Shown here: positions 33,665 to 44,975 of the stretch, piece after piece
Layout of the letters: each line of letters begins with the position of its first letter
Position numbering within the stretch: the first letter of the stretch is position 1
Assembly: GCA_934647195.1 (NCBI GenBank)
Contig: CAKUFD010000005.1
Location: 1 to 64,000, forward strand
Source: an uncultured Collinsella sp.
GTDB lineage: Bacteria; Actinomycetota; Coriobacteriia; Coriobacteriales; Coriobacteriaceae
DNA length: 64,000 bases
Direction: 5' to 3'
Notes under the pieces: generated by a model
Database searches by the model: none
What the model saw: only the letters and a program-made list of their open reading frames with translations
Told to the model about the DNA's origin: nothing
Position numbers and translations under genes: made by a program

Positions 33665-33727
33665 CTTTGGGTTCGGTCGTGAACTCGCGGCCCAAAACTG
33701 TCCGATAACCGAATAGTGGAACTTATG

Positions 33728-33765
33728 GCACGCCTTCGGTACGAGTTCCGAAGGCGTGCTGTTAT
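33728..33765 (+). terminator. Terminator after recR
   Basis: Twelve-base perfect stem GCACGCCTTCGG / CCGAAGGCGTGC with an eight-base loop, followed by TGTTAT. Confidence 0.7.
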
Positions 33766-33804
33766 GATTACGAACAGTGTGTCATATTCCCGTCCATTTG
33801 CGGC

Positions 33805-33813
33805 GGGGGGGGG
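33805..33813 (+). repeat. Run of nine G at the ribosome-binding site of the anchor gene
   Basis: Nine consecutive G lie five bases before the ATG at 33819 and take the place of a normal Shine-Dalgarno sequence. Such tracts slip in length during replication, which could alter translation of the whole cassette. A GTG at 33777 is in frame through the tract in the present length. Confidence 0.85.
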
Positions 33814-33818
33814 TATCA

Positions 33819-34829
33819 ATGAAGGCTTTGCCTAACTTAACCAAGCCGGCGACACGTCGGCGTTTGCGCTCGCTGTTGCCGTCGGCAATGATGGGTTTAG
33901 TCACGTTTTCCTTTACGTTGCTTTTTGTGGGGGCGGCGGCCTATACGGTCTCGCTTCCTTCGTTGATGAAAGATCCCGAGGGCAAGTCGTTTGTGCTGCT
34001 TGATGCTGCGGGCCGTACAGCGGGCTCTTCTGCATCGGGTATGTGGACGAGTCTCTTCCGTCAGATGATGTTTGGCGAGGACGCCGAGGGCGGGTCGTCC
34101 GCGAAGGCGGATTCTGGAACCAGCGCTGGTTCTGTGGGGAGCATGACGGGAATTTCCCTGTCTGGCTTCATGAACGGAACGGTTGCGGATGTCGAGACCA
34201 AGAAGGATGAGGCCAATGCCGGGCAGACCCCTGGCTCCGATACCGGCAAGACCGATCCGGATCCCTCTGTGCCCGATACTTCCTCCAAGCCCGATGACGG
34301 CAAGGGCGACACCGGGAAGGACGACACCGGCAAGGACGACACCGGCAAGGATGATGGCAAGGACGATAAGCCTGGTACGGAACTGAGCGAGGCGGACAAG
34401 GAATTCCGCCAGTGGATGCTCGGCCGCCTGACGAGGGTGGATGAGCTTGCCGCCGAAGTCAACAGCTTGACCGAGGAGTTCAACCGTTGCGCTCTGAGCA
34501 CAGATTCGGCTACTCGCCAAGCGGCTGCTGCCAGGGTGGAGAAAGCTAACGAAACGATTTGGGTCGAATTTAGCAAGACTCTTAACGGCCATGCCACGCC
34601 TGCGGGCACGCAGCTCGCAGATCAACGATCGCGCCTCATCGGTTCGTATCGATGCCTGAGGGACTACCTAGGTTGCCTCGACGATGCCTGGTCCAAAAAC
34701 CTCGAGTTCGCCGATCCCTCTCAGCATGTGAACGAGTTCATGCAGCCGCTGACTGAGACCATGAACGAAAGCGGCCAGAACAAATACCTTGCCGAGTACG
34801 GCCCCAAGCGTGCGGGAATCGTGCTATGA
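33819..34829 (+). CDS. Single-pass membrane protein with Asp/Thr/Lys repeat linker
   Basis: The 336-residue protein is of no family I recognise. It has a basic cytoplasmic N-terminus, one transmembrane helix near residues 24-46 (MGLVTFSFTLLFVGAAAYTV) and an outer part. The outer part holds a Ser/Gly-rich region, then an Asp/Lys/Thr linker with the unit GKDDT repeated (residues about 165-190), then a helical C-terminal domain of about 140 residues. Its stop overlaps the start of the next kinase by four bases. The order anchor, kinase, FHA protein suggests it is a sensor or target of that kinase. The start is set by the ATG after the G run. Confidence 0.75.
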   Translation: MKALPNLTKPATRRRLRSLLPSAMMGLVTFSFTLLFVGAAAYTVSLPSLMKDPEGKSFVLLDAAGRTAGSSASGMWTSLFRQMMFGEDAEGGSSAKADSGTSAGSVGSMTGISLSGFMNGTVADVETKKDEANAGQTPGSDTGKTDPDPSVPDTSSKPDDGKGDTGKDDTGKDDTGKDDGKDDKPGTELSEADKEFRQWMLGRLTRVDELAAEVNSLTEEFNRCALSTDSATRQAAAARVEKANETIWVEFSKTLNGHATPAGTQLADQRSRLIGSYRCLRDYLGCLDDAWSKNLEFADPSQHVNEFMQPLTETMNESGQNKYLAEYGPKRAGIVL

Positions 34830-36652
34830 CGGAGGAGATTCTCAAGGCGGCGGACACGCGTGTCGAACCCGCTCGTCCGCTGCGTGTTATCCACGTTGAA
34901 GATTTTGAATCCGCCGCACCGCTTTCCGATGGGGAGCGCGATGCGTGCCGCCGTCGTTTCACAACCTTGTTTGCAGACGAGGCGCGCACACGCCGCGGCG
35001 GTTTGGGCCGCGTAACCTACGTGACCAATGCGCTGGGCGAATGCTATGCGTGCAAGACCCTCGTCATGCCCGAGCGAGCCGCCGACGAAGACGCTGCCGC
35101 CTGCGACCGTCGTGACGAGCTGCTGCGCATCGCGTTTCGCAAGGAGTACGAGTGCCATCGCGCGCTTTCGGGCTTCAAGGGTTTCCCTCGTCTCTACGGC
35201 TATGGCTCTGTGGACGGTGCGCCCGCCATCATTATGGAGTGGGTCGAGGGCATGACGCTCGCGCAGGCACGCCATGCGCTTGCGGTCGATGACGAAGGCC
35301 GCCTGTCGCCGCTTACGGCGGCGCAGATCGGCCGCGGGCTTTTTGAGCTGTTGACGCGCATGGACCTCGCGGGCGATGGCTTTGTCCACCGAGATATCTC
35401 GCCATCAAACATCATGGTGCGCACGGTCCATCTTTCGCTCGAGCAGCAAGCGGACGAGGGCGAGTTCGATCTGTGCCTGATCGACTTTGGCTCTTCGTCC
35501 ATGGTGCAGCCGCCAGACCCCACCTTTACCGAACGCTTCTCCACGGCACGTCGCGCCACGCCCGCCTACGCCCCGCCTGAGATGCTCTCGGACGATATCG
35601 CGCACGTGGAGCGTCTTCGTACGTCTCCTGCCGTGGATGTGTACGCTGCCGCGAGCGTTGTGTACGAGCTGCTGTCCGGCGAGACGCCTTATGCTCAGGC
35701 CTTGCGGGGTGCCGAAGACGGTGACCATCCCGTTGCTTCGGCCTATCGCGTGAAGGTCGATGCGGCTCCTGCTCAGCTTGTGTGCGCTCATTGTTCCGGG
35801 GCCGACATGAAATCGGTTTTGGTGCGTGAACCCGAGGTGGCGGTTGCCGCCTATCAGGCCACAATCGATACGCCGCTGCTGCCGGAGTCGGAAGGGCTGC
35901 GCCTTTGCCTGGAGCTTGTTGACGATCAGCTTGCCGAGATGGTGATGGCCTGCTTGGTGACGTCGCAGGACAAGCGCCCCGAGGCGCGCGCCGTGCGCGA
36001 TGGCCTGGCGGCGTTTTGCAGGCATTATGCGCAAAACGTTCAGCGTGTCGTTGCGGGGGATCCGCTTATCCCCTGCATGATGGGCGCGTCTTGGCTCGAT
36101 TCCGCCTCGCCGTTTACGGTGCGCCGTGTGGCGCGCTCGATGGGAAAGGCCGTGGCTGCCGCCATTTGGTGCGCCGTGGCGCTTACTACCGCATGTTTAC
36201 TGCGCGGCACGTCTGCCACGCTGCGCTTTGACACGATGGTTTGGGCAGGCGAGCTTGGTTGGCTGCAGGTGTTTGCCGCTTTGGCTCTGCCGCCCGTGGC
36301 AGCCCTTGCTGCCCGCGGACGCGACCGTTGCTCGCGCGAGGGCTTTTTGCGCGGCACGCTCGGTTTGCTTGTGGGAGCTGCTTTCATCATGGGTTTGCTT
36401 GCGTGCACAGCGGTCGATCCCGCAGTGCGCGGCCGCGGTATGGTGACGGCACTCTTTACGGCGAGCGCAGCCGGTTGGTGTCCCATCGTGTTGGATTACG
36501 CGATGGCCATTGTCCCCGCGATGCTGCATGAGCGTCGTCGCCGTTTGGCGGCGGCAAGCGAGCGTCGTGCTGCCGCTTTTGGCGGGGCGCATGTGGGGCA
36601 GGTAGGAGAACTTCAATCCGCGCCGTCGGGTTCGAATAACGAGGAGCAATAG
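34826..36652 (+). CDS. Ser/Thr protein kinase with C-terminal membrane helices
   Basis: The 608-residue kinase has its catalytic domain in about residues 45-330. The glycine loop RGGLGRVTYV, the lysine in YACKTLVM, HRDISPSNIMV, DFG in LIDFGSSSMV and TPAYAPPEM are all present, so activity is expected. A large insert follows the activation loop. After residue 440 there are three or four hydrophobic helices and a short charged tail. It differs from PknB and from the kinase at 14651 in both the insert and the tail. It overlaps the anchor gene by four bases and is followed after three bases by an FHA gene, so the three are made together. Confidence 0.88.
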   Translation: MTEEILKAADTRVEPARPLRVIHVEDFESAAPLSDGERDACRRRFTTLFADEARTRRGGLGRVTYVTNALGECYACKTLVMPERAADEDAAACDRRDELLRIAFRKEYECHRALSGFKGFPRLYGYGSVDGAPAIIMEWVEGMTLAQARHALAVDDEGRLSPLTAAQIGRGLFELLTRMDLAGDGFVHRDISPSNIMVRTVHLSLEQQADEGEFDLCLIDFGSSSMVQPPDPTFTERFSTARRATPAYAPPEMLSDDIAHVERLRTSPAVDVYAAASVVYELLSGETPYAQALRGAEDGDHPVASAYRVKVDAAPAQLVCAHCSGADMKSVLVREPEVAVAAYQATIDTPLLPESEGLRLCLELVDDQLAEMVMACLVTSQDKRPEARAVRDGLAAFCRHYAQNVQRVVAGDPLIPCMMGASWLDSASPFTVRRVARSMGKAVAAAIWCAVALTTACLLRGTSATLRFDTMVWAGELGWLQVFAALALPPVAALAARGRDRCSREGFLRGTLGLLVGAAFIMGLLACTAVDPAVRGRGMVTALFTASAAGWCPIVLDYAMAIVPAMLHERRRRLAAASERRAAAFGGAHVGQVGELQSAPSGSNNEEQ

Positions 36653-36655
36653 GTT

Positions 36656-37606
36656 ATGGCTTTTTCCGACGAGTTGGCGCCGTGCGGCGTGATGTTCGAC
36701 GTGTTCAAACGCTCGTGCGCCATCAAGCACAACGAGCTTGCCGAGATGGTGCTTTCCGGCCGCCCGCTTTCTGATGGGCGCAGTCCAAAGAGTCGCACTT
36801 CCGACCGGTCTTGGGTTTCTCGCTTTATCGTGCACGCGCCCGCGGGTTCGCTGCAGGATCGCTACTTTGCCGATTACGGCCGTGCGGCCACGCGCGTCAT
36901 GAGCTGCCTGCGAACCCGGAGCTCCAAGGCCTTTGACCCTCAGCAGATTCTCGATGTGGTTTGCGGAGATGCGGGCCGGGCTATGGATGTGGCGCTTGCT
37001 GCGTGCCATCAGGATGCGCACTTGTACCGTAACATGCTCGATCGTATTAATTTGAGCTCCGGCACGACGGTGGGGGAGCGCGCCGAGGCTGCGCTCGTGC
37101 TGTTTGTGGCGGTTGGTTGCTCGGGCAACGTTGGCAAGGCTGTTGCCTACACGGCCGATTACGTGCGCTCCATGCACGTGAACCTCATGTCAACGCCGGT
37201 GATGACGGAGGTTACTGCTCCGGATTGTTCTCCCAACGAGGTGTGGGGACTTTGCCTGGGTCTTATCCGCGTGCGCGATGGATACGTGTGCGGGGCTCCG
37301 TACTGGATTGAGCCGACGGGGGAGGGCGTGACGCTTGGCACCCTTGCGCTGGGCGATAGCGACATCACCGATGTTGATCCAGATGTTTCGTCCGAGCATG
37401 CACGCATCTGGCGCAGCGATCACGATGGCTGGCTCGTGAAGGACCTGGGTTCCTCGAATGGAACGCTTGTTGTGGACGGCGCCAACCGTGCCGAGAACAA
37501 GGCGGAGGGAGATGCTGCGGTGCCGCTGCATGCGGGCGACGAGCTCCGTCTGGGCGCTAGCACCGTTTTTGCCGTGGTGGAGGGCATGCCGGAGCGCTGG
37601 GCGTAA
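36656..37606 (+). CDS. FHA-domain protein of the kinase cassette
   Basis: The 316-residue protein has a helical N-terminal part without a family I recognise and a C-terminal FHA domain (residues about 225-310) that binds phosphothreonine. FHA marks are LGDSDITDVDPDVSSEHARI and DLGSSNGTLVVDG. The usual opening GR of the FHA fold is changed to LG, so the phosphopeptide arginine may be lost. No membrane helix is seen. It is placed to read the phosphorylation done by the kinase immediately upstream. GAGGAG precedes the start by nine bases. Confidence 0.85.
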   Translation: MAFSDELAPCGVMFDVFKRSCAIKHNELAEMVLSGRPLSDGRSPKSRTSDRSWVSRFIVHAPAGSLQDRYFADYGRAATRVMSCLRTRSSKAFDPQQILDVVCGDAGRAMDVALAACHQDAHLYRNMLDRINLSSGTTVGERAEAALVLFVAVGCSGNVGKAVAYTADYVRSMHVNLMSTPVMTEVTAPDCSPNEVWGLCLGLIRVRDGYVCGAPYWIEPTGEGVTLGTLALGDSDITDVDPDVSSEHARIWRSDHDGWLVKDLGSSNGTLVVDGANRAENKAEGDAAVPLHAGDELRLGASTVFAVVEGMPERWA

Positions 37607-37726
37607 CGTTTCGGGGCGGCGGCTTGCGGCGCCGGTGCTCGCGCCGCTGCGCCGTGGCCTGCCGCTGCGCCTCCGCTGTCAGGTCGTTACGCCGTCGCGA
37701 CCTGCCGCCACGTCGCTCCCAAGTCA

Positions 37727-37792
37727 AAACCCACGCACAAACGACAACTTTTCGTCAAAAATAAGGAAAAGTGAACGTTTGTGCGTGGGTTT
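37727..37792. repeat. 66-bp palindromic hairpin repeat, copy 1
   Basis: The element has 17-base perfect outer arms (AAACCCACGCACAAACG and its complement). A small internal loop separates them from a second stem (ACTTTTC/GAAAAGT), around a 12-base loop. A nearly identical copy is at 40891-40956; only loop bases differ. The two copies flank the small-envelope gene set. It is followed by T-rich sequence, so it could also terminate transcripts. Confidence 0.85.
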
Positions 37793-37815
37793 CTTTTTGT
37801 CGCGGCGAGAGCGGT

Positions 37816-38133
37816 TTATTCCACGCTGCGTTTTCCGGCGCGTGCAATCATATGGACGCTATCGATAGCAGCGGCGATTGTGCATGCGGCAAGTATCAAC
37901 ACAAGGGGGTTCGACTTGATTGCCGCTTGGATATTTCCATGTAGCAACAAGACGATACCGGTTTTAACTCCACATCCTATGCACTGGTGTCCCGGTTGGT
38001 TGCATAGGTACGTAAAAGGGTCCGCGGTGAGCATAACTGCGCCGAGCACGAGCGTTGCCAGATAAACCGTCAAGCGCGCTTCGCACCAACTTGACATACT
38101 TGTCTCGCCGCAACGGCTCGTACGGCTAGTCAT
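37816..38133 (-). CDS. DUF2752-like small membrane protein
   Basis: The 105-residue protein has two or three hydrophobic helices and the DUF2752 hallmark (CNQPGHQCIGCGVKTGIVLL, then HGNIQAAIKSNPL): a cysteine pair before a Gly-rich turn and a closing NPL. The family's function is unknown. The start ATG at 38133 overlaps the end of the four-helix gene upstream by eight bases, so its translation may depend on that of the frame-shifted neighbour. It is the last gene of the minus-strand set; the hairpin repeat at 37727-37792 follows. Confidence 0.75.
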   Translation of the reverse strand: MTSRTSRCGETSMSSWCEARLTVYLATLVLGAVMLTADPFTYLCNQPGHQCIGCGVKTGIVLLLHGNIQAAIKSNPLVLILAACTIAAAIDSVHMIARAGKRSVE

Positions 38134-38579
38134 CGAGCTTCCAGATTCCCCTGAGGCATTGTATTGATCCGATGAGCTGGAGGACGAACGCCCATTCAAA
38201 CATCCAGTAAGCGCAGCAGATGCCAACGTTCCAAATCACAATGGAAGTAACGAAATTGAAGAGTGCCAGGGCAAGTTGAATGCAGCAGACGATCTTGAGG
38301 GGTTTCTTTGAGATTTTAGCAATCAGGATAACGACGGAAAGCGCCGTAATGACGAGCAGGACAACGAGCATTGCGCTTTCTAACGTGGGATAAGCCGTCT
38401 TGATAGTAACAGTAACATCGACCTCTTCTTTTGCCGTGTCAAGTGCGTAACCTAGCCACGCCACGAGACCGAAAAGGAAGAAGCCGGCGCCGCCGACGAT
38501 ATTGACGAGCGCGCCGGTTTTTAGAAGCGAGTGCTTGCGACCTGGTTGTTTATTCTGATTTTCTGGGGGGGGTTGGCAT
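38126..38579 (-). pseudogene. Four-helix membrane protein, out of frame at a C8 tract (phase-off or frameshift)
   Basis: An ATG at 38579 has a good ribosome-binding site (AAAGGATGACAGCC). Five bases after it comes a run of eight C (minus strand), and the frame then ends at once in TAA. Removing one C joins the ATG to a long downstream frame of about 150 residues with four hydrophobic helices. Examples are LVNIVGGAGFFLFGLVAWLG, AMLVVLLVITALSVVILIA and CIQLALALFNFVTSIVI. The shift exactly at a homopolymer next to a sound start is what a slipped-strand switch looks like. A sequencing error would look the same. No family is recognised. Confidence 0.65.
38565..38572 (+). repeat. Run of eight G (C on coding strand) at codons 3-5 of the four-helix gene
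   Basis: Eight G on the plus strand, immediately inside the minus-strand reading frame starting at 38579. Seven or ten would keep the downstream frame open; eight closes it. Confidence 0.85.
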
Positions 38580-38655
38580 GGCTGTCATCCTTTCTTAAAA
38601 AATGCCTGGCGGCTTGTTTGCCATCTTTAATTCTCGTTCTTTAGAGCAAGAGTTT

Positions 38656-38670
38656 GTTGAGCAACAAATT
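38656..38670 (-). promoter_or_regulatory. Shared 15-base upstream motif, copy 1
   Basis: GTTGAGCAACAAATT lies 77-91 bases upstream of the start at 38579. The same 15 bases lie at 40817-40831, 57-71 bases upstream of the start at 40760, on the same strand. It is a candidate regulator or promoter element shared by the two genes. Confidence 0.45.
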
Positions 38671-38752
38671 AGTCGGTGCTGTTGCGATAGCTGAGGACTG
38701 TTGCAACGGTTCATTGCCGCAAAGGGCTGTTCGCTTCAAATTGGGGCTTACT

Positions 38753-38784
38753 AAAAATGGAGCTCGCAAAGGCGGGCTCCATTT
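38753..38784 (-). terminator. Terminator after zinc-ribbon/Ltp gene
   Basis: AAATGGAGC...GCTCCATTT stem. On the minus strand it is followed by TTTTTAG. It lies 39 bases after the stop of the gene at 38823. Confidence 0.75.
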
Positions 38785-38822
38785 GGGAAGACTTGTCATG
38801 AGGGTTATGCGGGAACGCAGGC

Positions 38823-39990
38823 TTAATATCCGACAGCGGCAAGACCGTAAGCGATTTGGCTCGAGGTGAAGCCTTCGTATTCGAGTTGGTCGTAGAGCTC
38901 GGAGCGTGACATGCTCATGGAGTCCAGGTAGTCCTGGGCGCACTCGGCGCATTGCTCGTTCCAGTTTGCACCACAGTGCTCGATGGCGTAGTCGATTTCA
39001 GATGAGCTAAATCCTTCGTATTCAAGTTGATCGCGCAGACCCGATTCAGAGAAACCGCCGACATATTCAAGATAGTCTTGTGCACTTTCCAGGGCATTGC
39101 TCTGACCAAGGGTTGCGGAAGAGCTGGATGAGCGTTCGCCCGAACGGGAACTGGAATGCTCACGGGAGGATGAGCTATCACTTGAATGGGAACTGCTGGT
39201 CGGCGAAGAGCTGTCTAGCGAGGGAAGATCGGAGCGACTCCAGGGGCTGGACTGTGCTGCTTGTTTGTCTCGACAGAGTGCTAGGACCATGTCGGTGTCA
39301 ACGTCTGCAATAAGGCAGGCGAGTGACTGCTTGTCGTTGGGGTTGCTGCAGATTAACGTGTACTGAATGAAGAGGGCAGTGTTGTTGTCGCTTTTGAGAT
39401 GGAGTGCTGCCGTGTGAAGGCCCTTGCCGTCGTGCTCGTTTTCTTCCCAGGAACCAGTCCAATCGCTGTATTCGTCATTACCGCCGAGATGGAGTTTTGC
39501 GGTTCCGTCTGCCTCAATAACAAGGGTCGCTTTAGTTTCGTCGCTGAAGTGCAGATTCTCGATACCAAAGGTGGTGACGCCAGCGCAATACCAAGTGCCA
39601 ATGCACCATGGGTTGGGAGAGATCAAAGGAATCAGAACATTGACAAACAGGATGCCAAAGACGGCTACGGCGGCAAGGGCGGCAACGATGCGGGGGGGTG
39701 GGTTTGCCGTTTGGCTTTTTTGGTGTGGCAACGGGGCCTGTCGGGACGTTTGGCGTGCTGGGGACGTTCTGGCTAACGCTGGAGTTGGCGACGTTTGCCG
39801 TGTGGTCGGTGGAGCTCACCGCGTCTTCGACGGGAGAGCTGTCTCCTCTTTCCTGGGCGCTCGCATCGTCTACGTTTTCCGCTCGCGAGTTATTCGATGC
39901 TCCGGCCGCCGCTTCATCCAGACGAAAGCCGCATTCGGTGCAGAACGCAGCTCCCTCTTTGGGTTCATGGCCGCAATTGGGGCAAATCAT
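38823..39990 (-). pseudogene. Zinc-ribbon / TM / tandem Ltp-domain protein, split by a shift at a C7 tract
   Basis: From ATG 39990 (ribosome-binding site AGGAGATTGCC) the frame encodes a zinc ribbon (CPNCGHEPKEGAAFCTECGF) and a Ser/Val linker, reaching a run of seven C. The frame then leaves the natural protein. In the next frame the sequence continues sensibly: a transmembrane helix (IVAALAAVAVFGILFVNVLI), an extracellular domain, a Ser-rich stretch, and two C-terminal repeats of the Ltp/host-attachment type (DYLEYVGGFSESGLRDQLEY, then DYLDSMSMSRSELYDQLEYE). Six or nine C would restore one protein of about 388 residues. Ltp of a Streptococcus phage blocks phage DNA entry; a like role here is only a possibility. 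It may be phase-off, a real mutation or a sequencing error. Confidence 0.7.
39692..39698 (+). repeat. Run of seven G (C on coding strand) between zinc ribbon and TM helix
   Basis: Seven G on the plus strand mark the exact point where the two halves of the zinc-ribbon/Ltp gene change frame. Confidence 0.85.
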
Positions 39991-40103
39991 GGCAATCTCC
40001 TACTCTTGGATTTGGCGGCCGCACTTGCCGCCGAGTGCTCTTGCGTTGCGAATTGACTCAGTGGATGTTTGCTCAACCGCTTATCAAGATGCCGCCGACT
40101 ACC

Positions 40104-40760
40104 CTATGAGAGGCCGTCCAGTGAGGGAAGGTCCGATATGCTCCACGTGGAGGATTCCGCTACTTTTTTGTCTCGGCAGAATGCGAAGACGAGGTCGGTA
40201 TTCGTATAAAGGACGAGGCAGCTAGCCGATCCTTCATCCTCGGGGTCATCGCAAACTAGTGTGAAACGAGAAACGTTGTTCGTTCCGCTCTCCCTGAGGA
40301 AGAGCGTAACGGTATCGCGGTCCGAGCCTTTGTCTTCTACCCAGGTGCCCGTGAAAGAGGCCGAATCATAGGAGCCGATGACATTAAGTTCTGCTGTACC
40401 GGCAGGGCCGAGTTCAAGCGTCGTTAGCATGGCGGCTTTGACGTGGGCGTCGTCAAGGTCCATATCGTCGACGCCCGTGCTGGTTGCTCCGATGCCATAC
40501 CATGTGTCGACATACCATGGGCCCGAATGCGAGCTGCTTGTTGATTTTGATTTCGTTTTTGAGGACGAAGATACCCATTTTGCTGGGGATGAAGGCGTCG
40601 AGGTCAAAATGTCGGCAAACAGAATTCCGCCGATGCCCACAACGGCGATAACGACTGCGGTGATGCAAGCAATAAACCTGCCATGTTTTTTCCTGGGGGT
40701 ATTTTGTTGCTGCTCCACCGGGACGTTTGTCGTGTCGGGTGCAATCTGGTCGTCGTGCAT
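40104..40760 (-). CDS. Membrane-anchored paralogue of the zinc-ribbon/Ltp gene's outer domain
   Basis: The 218-residue protein has a short cytoplasmic part, one transmembrane helix (FIACITAVVIAVVGIGGILF, residues about 28-50), a Ser/Lys linker and an extracellular domain. That domain (WYVDTWYGIGATSTGVDDMD to ISDLPSLD) aligns with the matching part of the gene at 38823-39990 (WCIGTWYCAGVTTFGIENLH to RSDLPSLD). The two are paralogues, but this one lacks the zinc ribbon, the homopolymer run and the Ltp repeats. The start has AAAGGAGCAGATT before it. It is the first gene of the minus-strand set. No function is known. Confidence 0.8.
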   Translation of the reverse strand: MHDDQIAPDTTNVPVEQQQNTPRKKHGRFIACITAVVIAVVGIGGILFADILTSTPSSPAKWVSSSSKTKSKSTSSSHSGPWYVDTWYGIGATSTGVDDMDLDDAHVKAAMLTTLELGPAGTAELNVIGSYDSASFTGTWVEDKGSDRDTVTLFLRESGTNNVSRFTLVCDDPEDEGSASCLVLYTNTDLVFAFCRDKKVAESSTWSISDLPSLDGLS

Positions 40761-40816
40761 AATCTGCTCCTTTCGAGTACTGACTTCTCTATGGTCTCTT
40801 TCCGCTTCGCAAATCA

Positions 40817-40831
40817 GTTGAGCAACAAATT
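40817..40831 (-). promoter_or_regulatory. Shared 15-base upstream motif, copy 2
   Basis: Identical to 38656-38670 and in the same orientation, 57-71 bases upstream of the start at 40760. Confidence 0.45.
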
Positions 40832-40890
40832 GGACGGCACTCTCGGGTGGCTGGGCGTCTGCGTTGGAGTGATACGCGACGCCAAAGTCA

Positions 40891-40956
40891 AAACCCACGC
40901 ACAAACGACAACTTTTCGCCGAAAATAAGGAAAAGTGAACGTTTGTGCGTGGGTTT
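40891..40956. repeat. 66-bp palindromic hairpin repeat, copy 2
   Basis: Same 17-base outer arms and inner stem as 37727-37792, and also preceded by AAGTCAA. Two loop bases differ (GCCG for GTCA). The match in both arms suggests a mobile or conserved intergenic repeat family. Confidence 0.85.
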
Positions 40957-41435
40957 TTGATGCGTGCCCGCTGGGTAAGCGGGCGGGGCTCGAGCAGACG
41001 CGCGGGGCAAACGCGCGGGTGGGGCTTGAGTGGCGGCGCGGGCAACGCTCGGGGTAGGGCCGAACTGCCGTGTGTGCGAGGGCAACGTGCAAACAACGCG
41101 CGGGCCCCACGCAAGCGCGCCCACGCCGACATCGATACGGCTGTCAACCGGGTCTTTTATCCCTTCCGATTCATGCAGCGCCGCTTGCGGTTTTCGAAAA
41201 CGAAAGCGGCCGTGCGGAGTACAATAAAGCAACCTGTGAAATCGAAGCATTCACCATGATGGAGGCAGGGCCTCCCGTCGCGTTGCGCGCTGTATCGAGC
41301 GTGCGTTCGTGGGTAGAATGACCTGCGGTTCCAGCGCAATGCATCGCATCGCCCGCTGCATTGCAACACGTGGCTACATCCGAAAGGCGCCGTCTTTCGG
41401 AAAGCATGTACACCCAAACGAGAGGAGAGGGGTAT

Positions 41436-44975
<3,540 letters not shown>

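Follow-up and report, generated by a model that had tools for sequence, protein, structure and literature searches.

Within a 64,000-nucleotide stretch of DNA from an uncultured Collinsella sp. (contig CAKUFD010000005.1, positions 1 to 64,000; hereafter the window), we analyzed gene 1 (38823..39990, minus strand), which carries the parts of a zinc-ribbon membrane protein with Ltp repeats, together with the 3-kb island that contains it. We found that the window carries gene 1, an accessory gene for a membrane protein, in a naturally occurring 'off' state, with its parts out of frame. The analysis also revealed that at least three protein sequences of the adjoining gene 2 family occur in nature as long and short forms, as judged from protein records. 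We place at roughly one half the probability that the island holds a set of slippage-switched (contingency) surface proteins. According to this explanation, the zinc-ribbon head of gene 1 would have come to lie in a different frame from its membrane/Ltp body through DNA slippage at a short C run. The same accessory island also contains a further membrane-protein gene, in which a C run begins in codon 3 and whose protein occurs in long and short natural forms. The evidence that speaks for a switch came from this neighbour, gene 2, rather than from gene 1, which had been flagged first.

The two frames of gene 1 and its relatives

The open reading frames (ORFs), the Pfam matches and the one-frame relatives revealed that gene 1 is divided into two frames, which meet at a run of seven C (39692..39698, minus strand; seven G on the plus strand). 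In particular, ORF1 (39532..39990, minus strand) starts at ATG 39990, encodes a zinc ribbon and a linker, departs from the family frame past the C run and ends in an out-of-frame tail with a stop at 39532. The zinc ribbon (39919..39984, minus strand; C3, C6, C17 and C20 in the alignment) matched PF13248 and PF13240, both above their cut-offs. The second frame is open from 39731 to 38823 on the minus strand and corresponds to ORF2, a 302-residue ORF with a TTG start. It contains the following four components, all on the minus strand: a hydrophobic membrane helix just after the C run (39621..39692; helix 103-117 in the model of the relative P0002, at low confidence), a WCIGTWY domain predicted to form a beta-barrel of lipocalin/avidin-like arrangement (39255..39623), a serine-rich spacer in which 22 of 37 residues are Ser in the alignment (39117..39227), and two Ltp repeats (38841..39113). 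The arrangement of two frames meeting at seven C had been proposed in the original prediction from the sequence and is confirmed here.

A protein search with the 302-residue ORF2 product found 567 proteins at E 1e-10, of which the best 120 were listed; the sequences inside 90% clusters were not visible, and only the representatives were compared. As a query, the ORF1 product matched solely the window's own protein, P0147. The 14 closest proteins to ORF2 (P0001-P0014) were 74-100% identical, and 12 of them crossed the junction in a single frame. Ten of these 12 were complete, with lengths of 369-395 residues that agree with the predicted one-frame length of about 388 residues, and with the same layout of zinc ribbon, membrane helix, predicted barrel, serine-rich spacer and two Ltp repeats. 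P0013 (307 residues) and P0014 (352 residues) also cover the junction; they are truncated or lose the frame at a later point, within or ahead of the Ltp repeats and away from the C run. The start of P0008 lies downstream of the junction.

The remaining close protein, P0001, is the broken form of 302 residues. It stands for a 90% cluster of nine sequences from six contigs, with sources labelled lgn and ena; the representative, which alone was compared, is one residue off the ORF2 of the window and identical across the run. Homopolymers are error-prone in some sequencing methods, and a sequencing or assembly error at the run could in principle produce the same break. As P0001 reads through the run in the same way, the break is found beyond this assembly, which argues against such an error; the assembly error that had been named as a possible refutation is therefore largely refuted, and we consider it very improbable. 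Two separate genes, with the 302-residue ORF translated from its own TTG, would agree with the record of this ORF as a database protein (P0001), whereas no convincing ribosome-binding site was seen by eye upstream of TTG 39731, and in 12 of the 14 closest proteins the two parts are joined. We regard this arrangement as the most improbable of those considered.

More distant searches retrieved mainly the Ltp repeats. In a scan of genome contigs, the best 80 of 91 relatives matched query residues 110-302 at most, mostly in the Ltp repeats alone, and came from other taxa. Among plasmids (11 records) and phages (140 records, 15 of them listed), none covered 80% of the gene 1 query, and the listed matches lay in the Ltp repeats; viral contigs yielded no relative of gene 1 or gene 2. 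With a full-length gene 1 relative as the query, two families gave matches at E 1e-20 in 1 of 65 and 15 of 140 genomes, all confined to the C-terminal part and beginning no earlier than residue 234; at E 1e-30, 1 of 296 genomes of the phylum matched.

Gene 2 and its long and short forms

Gene 2 (38126..38579, minus strand) encodes a small membrane protein of the family MPTPPENQNKQP...RGIWKLDD, and in the window its body does not lie in the frame of its start codon. It contains a second frame-breaking run, which was absent from the original prediction: eight C (38565..38572, minus strand) from the second base of codon 3. Reading from ATG 38579, translation enters the eight C in codon 3 and stops after nine residues, and the body is open in another frame.

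With the 112-residue body as the query, we found 26 proteins, which comprised 17 long (148-164 residues) and nine short ones. The long proteins mostly began with MPTPPEN (12 of 17) or a close variant (4 of 17), and one had another start. Three of the nine short proteins were exact suffixes of long ones save for the start residue; the other six had no exact partner. Specifically, P0121, which is the window's own form and was found in 55 contigs, is a suffix of P0122 (20 contigs), P0130 is a suffix of both P0131 and P0132, and P0140 (31 contigs) is a suffix of P0133. These comparisons are at the protein level, the contig counts do not equal independent isolates, and the short starts were placed by gene callers. 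Slippage would be the probable cause of the long and short forms, and switching is better supported for gene 2 than for gene 1 at the level of protein records.

Elsewhere, the gene 2 profile gave one match (1.3e-14) over 395 genomes of the order, and the AF2 model of gene 2 (pLDDT 54) was too poor for use. In the family P0121-P0146, both ends are nearly invariant and the middle is highly variable, which suggests a mosaic exchange of alleles. Additionally, the longest contig is the same for P0014 and the short gene 2 protein P0130 (9621 bases), and likewise for P0003 and P0137 (45044 bases), which suggests linkage.

The accessory island and the case for switching

The gene names recR, nifJ, FHA and kinase used here are those that we presume by recognition. 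In the window, 3.8 kb separate the FHA gene (ending at 37606) from nifJ (starting at 41436), and four minus-strand genes lie there between two 75-nucleotide palindromes (37718..37792 and 40882..40956) that are 96% identical to each other. Besides genes 1 and 2, these are a DUF2752 protein gene (37816..38226, minus strand; PF10825, E 3.1e-10), which overlaps the 3' end of gene 2, and a gene upstream of gene 1 (40104..40760, minus strand), for which the ORFs, Pfam and alignment indicated a hydrophobic helix and a domain akin to the one in gene 1, with no zinc ribbon and no Ltp repeat.

NifJ was 95-96% identical in 23 of 65 genomes of one family, and we compared 22 of these nifJ loci (L120-L141), the 23rd genome being the sister genome G317. 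An FHA gene lay 0.4-0.6 kb from nifJ in 20 of the 22 loci, where a search at E 1e-4 detected no island protein; the other two had 0.4-0.5 kb upstream, too short to tell. By blastn, G317 showed 90-92.5% DNA identity around the site and lacked window positions 33669-33911 and 33997-41031. This 7-kb gap takes in the kinase, the FHA gene and the island, and an 85-base remnant (window 33912-33996) lies beside nifJ (L160, 6286-6394). The island is thus accessory, because it was not found in the nifJ loci of relatives and is missing in G317. Among 29 genomes of the genus, the palindrome was found only in G317, with 10 matches at six places, and the palindromes may be markers of slots for accessory genes. 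At one place in G317 (L155, 6606-7920), two copies flank a gene whose product has an endonuclease-like C-terminus, beside a transposase-like gene (both judged by eye).

The runs at which the two genes break are rare in related DNA by comparison. The window contained three runs of at least seven G or C, two of them inside the 3-kb island, while a single one, at a contig edge, was present in the 137,880 bases of the 22 nifJ loci, and six pieces of G317 contained none in 78,006 bases. A MutS domain was found in none of 29 genomes of the genus, compared with 11 of 14 controls, so that small changes of run length should often stay uncorrected. NucS matched in seven of the 29 genomes at E 0.001, two above the cut-off and all as partial matches; an excerpt of a report on Mycobacterium smegmatis states that NucS does not repair indels of 1-2 bases and links this to phase variation (PMC11551767).

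Similar runs were described in excerpts of reports on two other bacteria. In Gardnerella, runs lie in or near genes, changes of their length can alter the reading frame, and several of these genes appear to encode surface proteins (PMC11287997). In Cutibacterium acnes, frame-altering runs in or near genes were 96% G or C, and their variation followed clades, which suggests slow accumulation and not rapid switching (PMC4746626). Unlike here, these are other genera and other genes. Judged by titles, a literature search for Collinsella with phase variation gave nothing on such a switch; for coriobacteri with phase-variable, the second term stood in the reference list only, in the text excerpted; and for slipped-strand with homopolymeric runs, no Collinsella was among the matches listed.

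Several observations weigh against slippage-switched surface proteins. The junction residues of the 12 covering relatives of gene 1 are PIPR, PIAR or VPR, which by the genetic code can be encoded with no more than five C; because of this, the long run looks newly formed in the window's allele, and a long C run at the junction is not conserved among these relatives. No intact form of the window's own gene 1 allele was present among the best 120 of the 567 proteins. Measured against base composition alone, G/C runs are not over-represented in the window: six overlapping 7-mer matches were counted, and shuffled sequences would be expected to give 8.8. Runs of seven and eight do not exceed the length described as likely to slip in the excerpted Gardnerella report (PMC11287997). 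With regard to the product itself, no lipobox was seen by eye in gene 1, and its N-terminus, MICPNCGH, has no signal peptide before any listed cysteine; the product is therefore not an Ltp-type lipoprotein. The earlier proposal that gene 1 is phase-variable was borne out in part: the one-frame relatives, the position of the break at the C run and the same break in P0001 agree with it, whereas the run is not conserved and no intact form of the same allele is among the matches listed. Reversible switching of gene 1 is possible.

These points bear directly on a simpler account, in which gene 1 is a plain null allele that arose by one-time slippage at a run recently lengthened by a base change and is now clonally inherited and decaying, with gene 2 alone acting as a switch. 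It would explain why the 12 junction-covering relatives do not code for a long C run, the common break of P0001 and the window, with one residue changed as in a clonal null, is what it predicts, and P0013 and P0014 are cut or broken elsewhere. Set against it, both pieces of gene 1 stay open outside the C run and can be aligned to one-frame relatives, and the adjoining gene 2 has long and short forms. We hold this account to be a serious, if tentative, possibility. Homopolymeric C is also a plausible slippery site, at which transcriptional slippage or a ribosomal frameshift could yield some full-length protein and thereby both short and long products without any change in the DNA. As the long run is missing in the 12 relatives, nothing suggests a conserved programmed site, and we consider this explanation improbable.

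Slippage-switched genes of the island could also be regulated together. Three copies of the pattern GTTGAGCAAMM are present in the window against 0.06 expected, one upstream of each of three island genes: GTTGAGCAACA upstream of gene 2 (38656..38666, plus strand), GTTGAGCAAAC upstream of gene 1 (40067..40077, minus strand) and GTTGAGCAACA upstream of the 40104 gene (40817..40827, plus strand). The pattern scan points to shared regulation of these genes as a lead only, because the pattern was picked after its copies had been seen and one copy is oppositely oriented. Downstream of gene 1, a hairpin followed by a T run (38755..38784, minus strand; fold -17 kcal/mol, z -3.7) is a likely terminator; a simple scan neither listed it nor detected a sigma-70-type promoter.

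Outside the island, the window contains a kinase gene and then the FHA gene (34826-37606). Relatives with a 96% identical NifJ show only about 50% identity in the FHA protein. The kinase matched 31 PADLOC models, the best being mad6 (2.1e-26), and is perhaps merely a generic kinase. We also observed nine G at 33805-33813, where the ribosome-binding site of the gene after recR would lie, five bases ahead of its ATG 33819; changes of run length there could tune translation.

The Ltp repeats and phage exclusion

The Ltp-type domain in gene 1 had been recognized in the original prediction and was supported: PF07553 matched in two stretches (E 4e-27), and the C-terminal repeats have a fold in common with Ltp of phage TP-J34 (structure 4eqq) and match two PHROG 'superinfection exclusion' families. 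As in an excerpted description of Ltp from this Streptococcus thermophilus phage, a serine-rich spacer separates anchor and repeats (PMC3952083). Unlike TP-J34 Ltp, a phage-encoded lipoprotein (PMC3952083), gene 1 encodes a zinc ribbon at the N-terminus along with a membrane helix and a barrel, and its island sits between chromosomal genes (kinase, FHA gene and nifJ). An assignment of barrel function from the fold was rejected, as many unrelated barrels had near-tied Z-scores, including avidins and the Cap15 receptor barrel. PADLOC-DB 2.0.0 gave no match at E 0.01 for P0002, P0122, the 40104 protein or the DUF2752 protein. A comparison with NCBIfam likewise produced no hit above a cut-off.

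In the intact gene 1 product, the zinc ribbon would probably face the cytoplasm, and the barrel and the Ltp repeats would lie outside the cell, where they would be placed to interfere with the entry of phage DNA in a manner similar to Ltp. Phage exclusion by this product is a reasonable hypothesis. A further-reaching scheme combines a palindrome-flanked island, a genus without detectable MutS and at least two C-run contingency genes with a common upstream site. These would give four on/off states, and one output would be a helix-anchored zinc-ribbon Ltp protein that blocks phage DNA entry, i.e., a host-owned, slippage-switched system of superinfection exclusion; we regard this scheme as a whole as doubtful.

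The model proposed here has a counterpart in CwpV of Clostridioides difficile, a different protein whose switching depends on DNA inversion and not on homopolymer slippage. According to an excerpt of a report on CwpV, this surface protein is encoded by the host and phase-variable, and its C-terminal domain carries an anti-phage effect resembling superinfection exclusion (PMC4737114). If the island does switch, surface proteins would be turned on and off at random in this Collinsella lineage, one or more of them built like a phage-exclusion protein, and a slippage-switched, host-encoded Ltp would join CwpV as a phase-variable exclusion protein.
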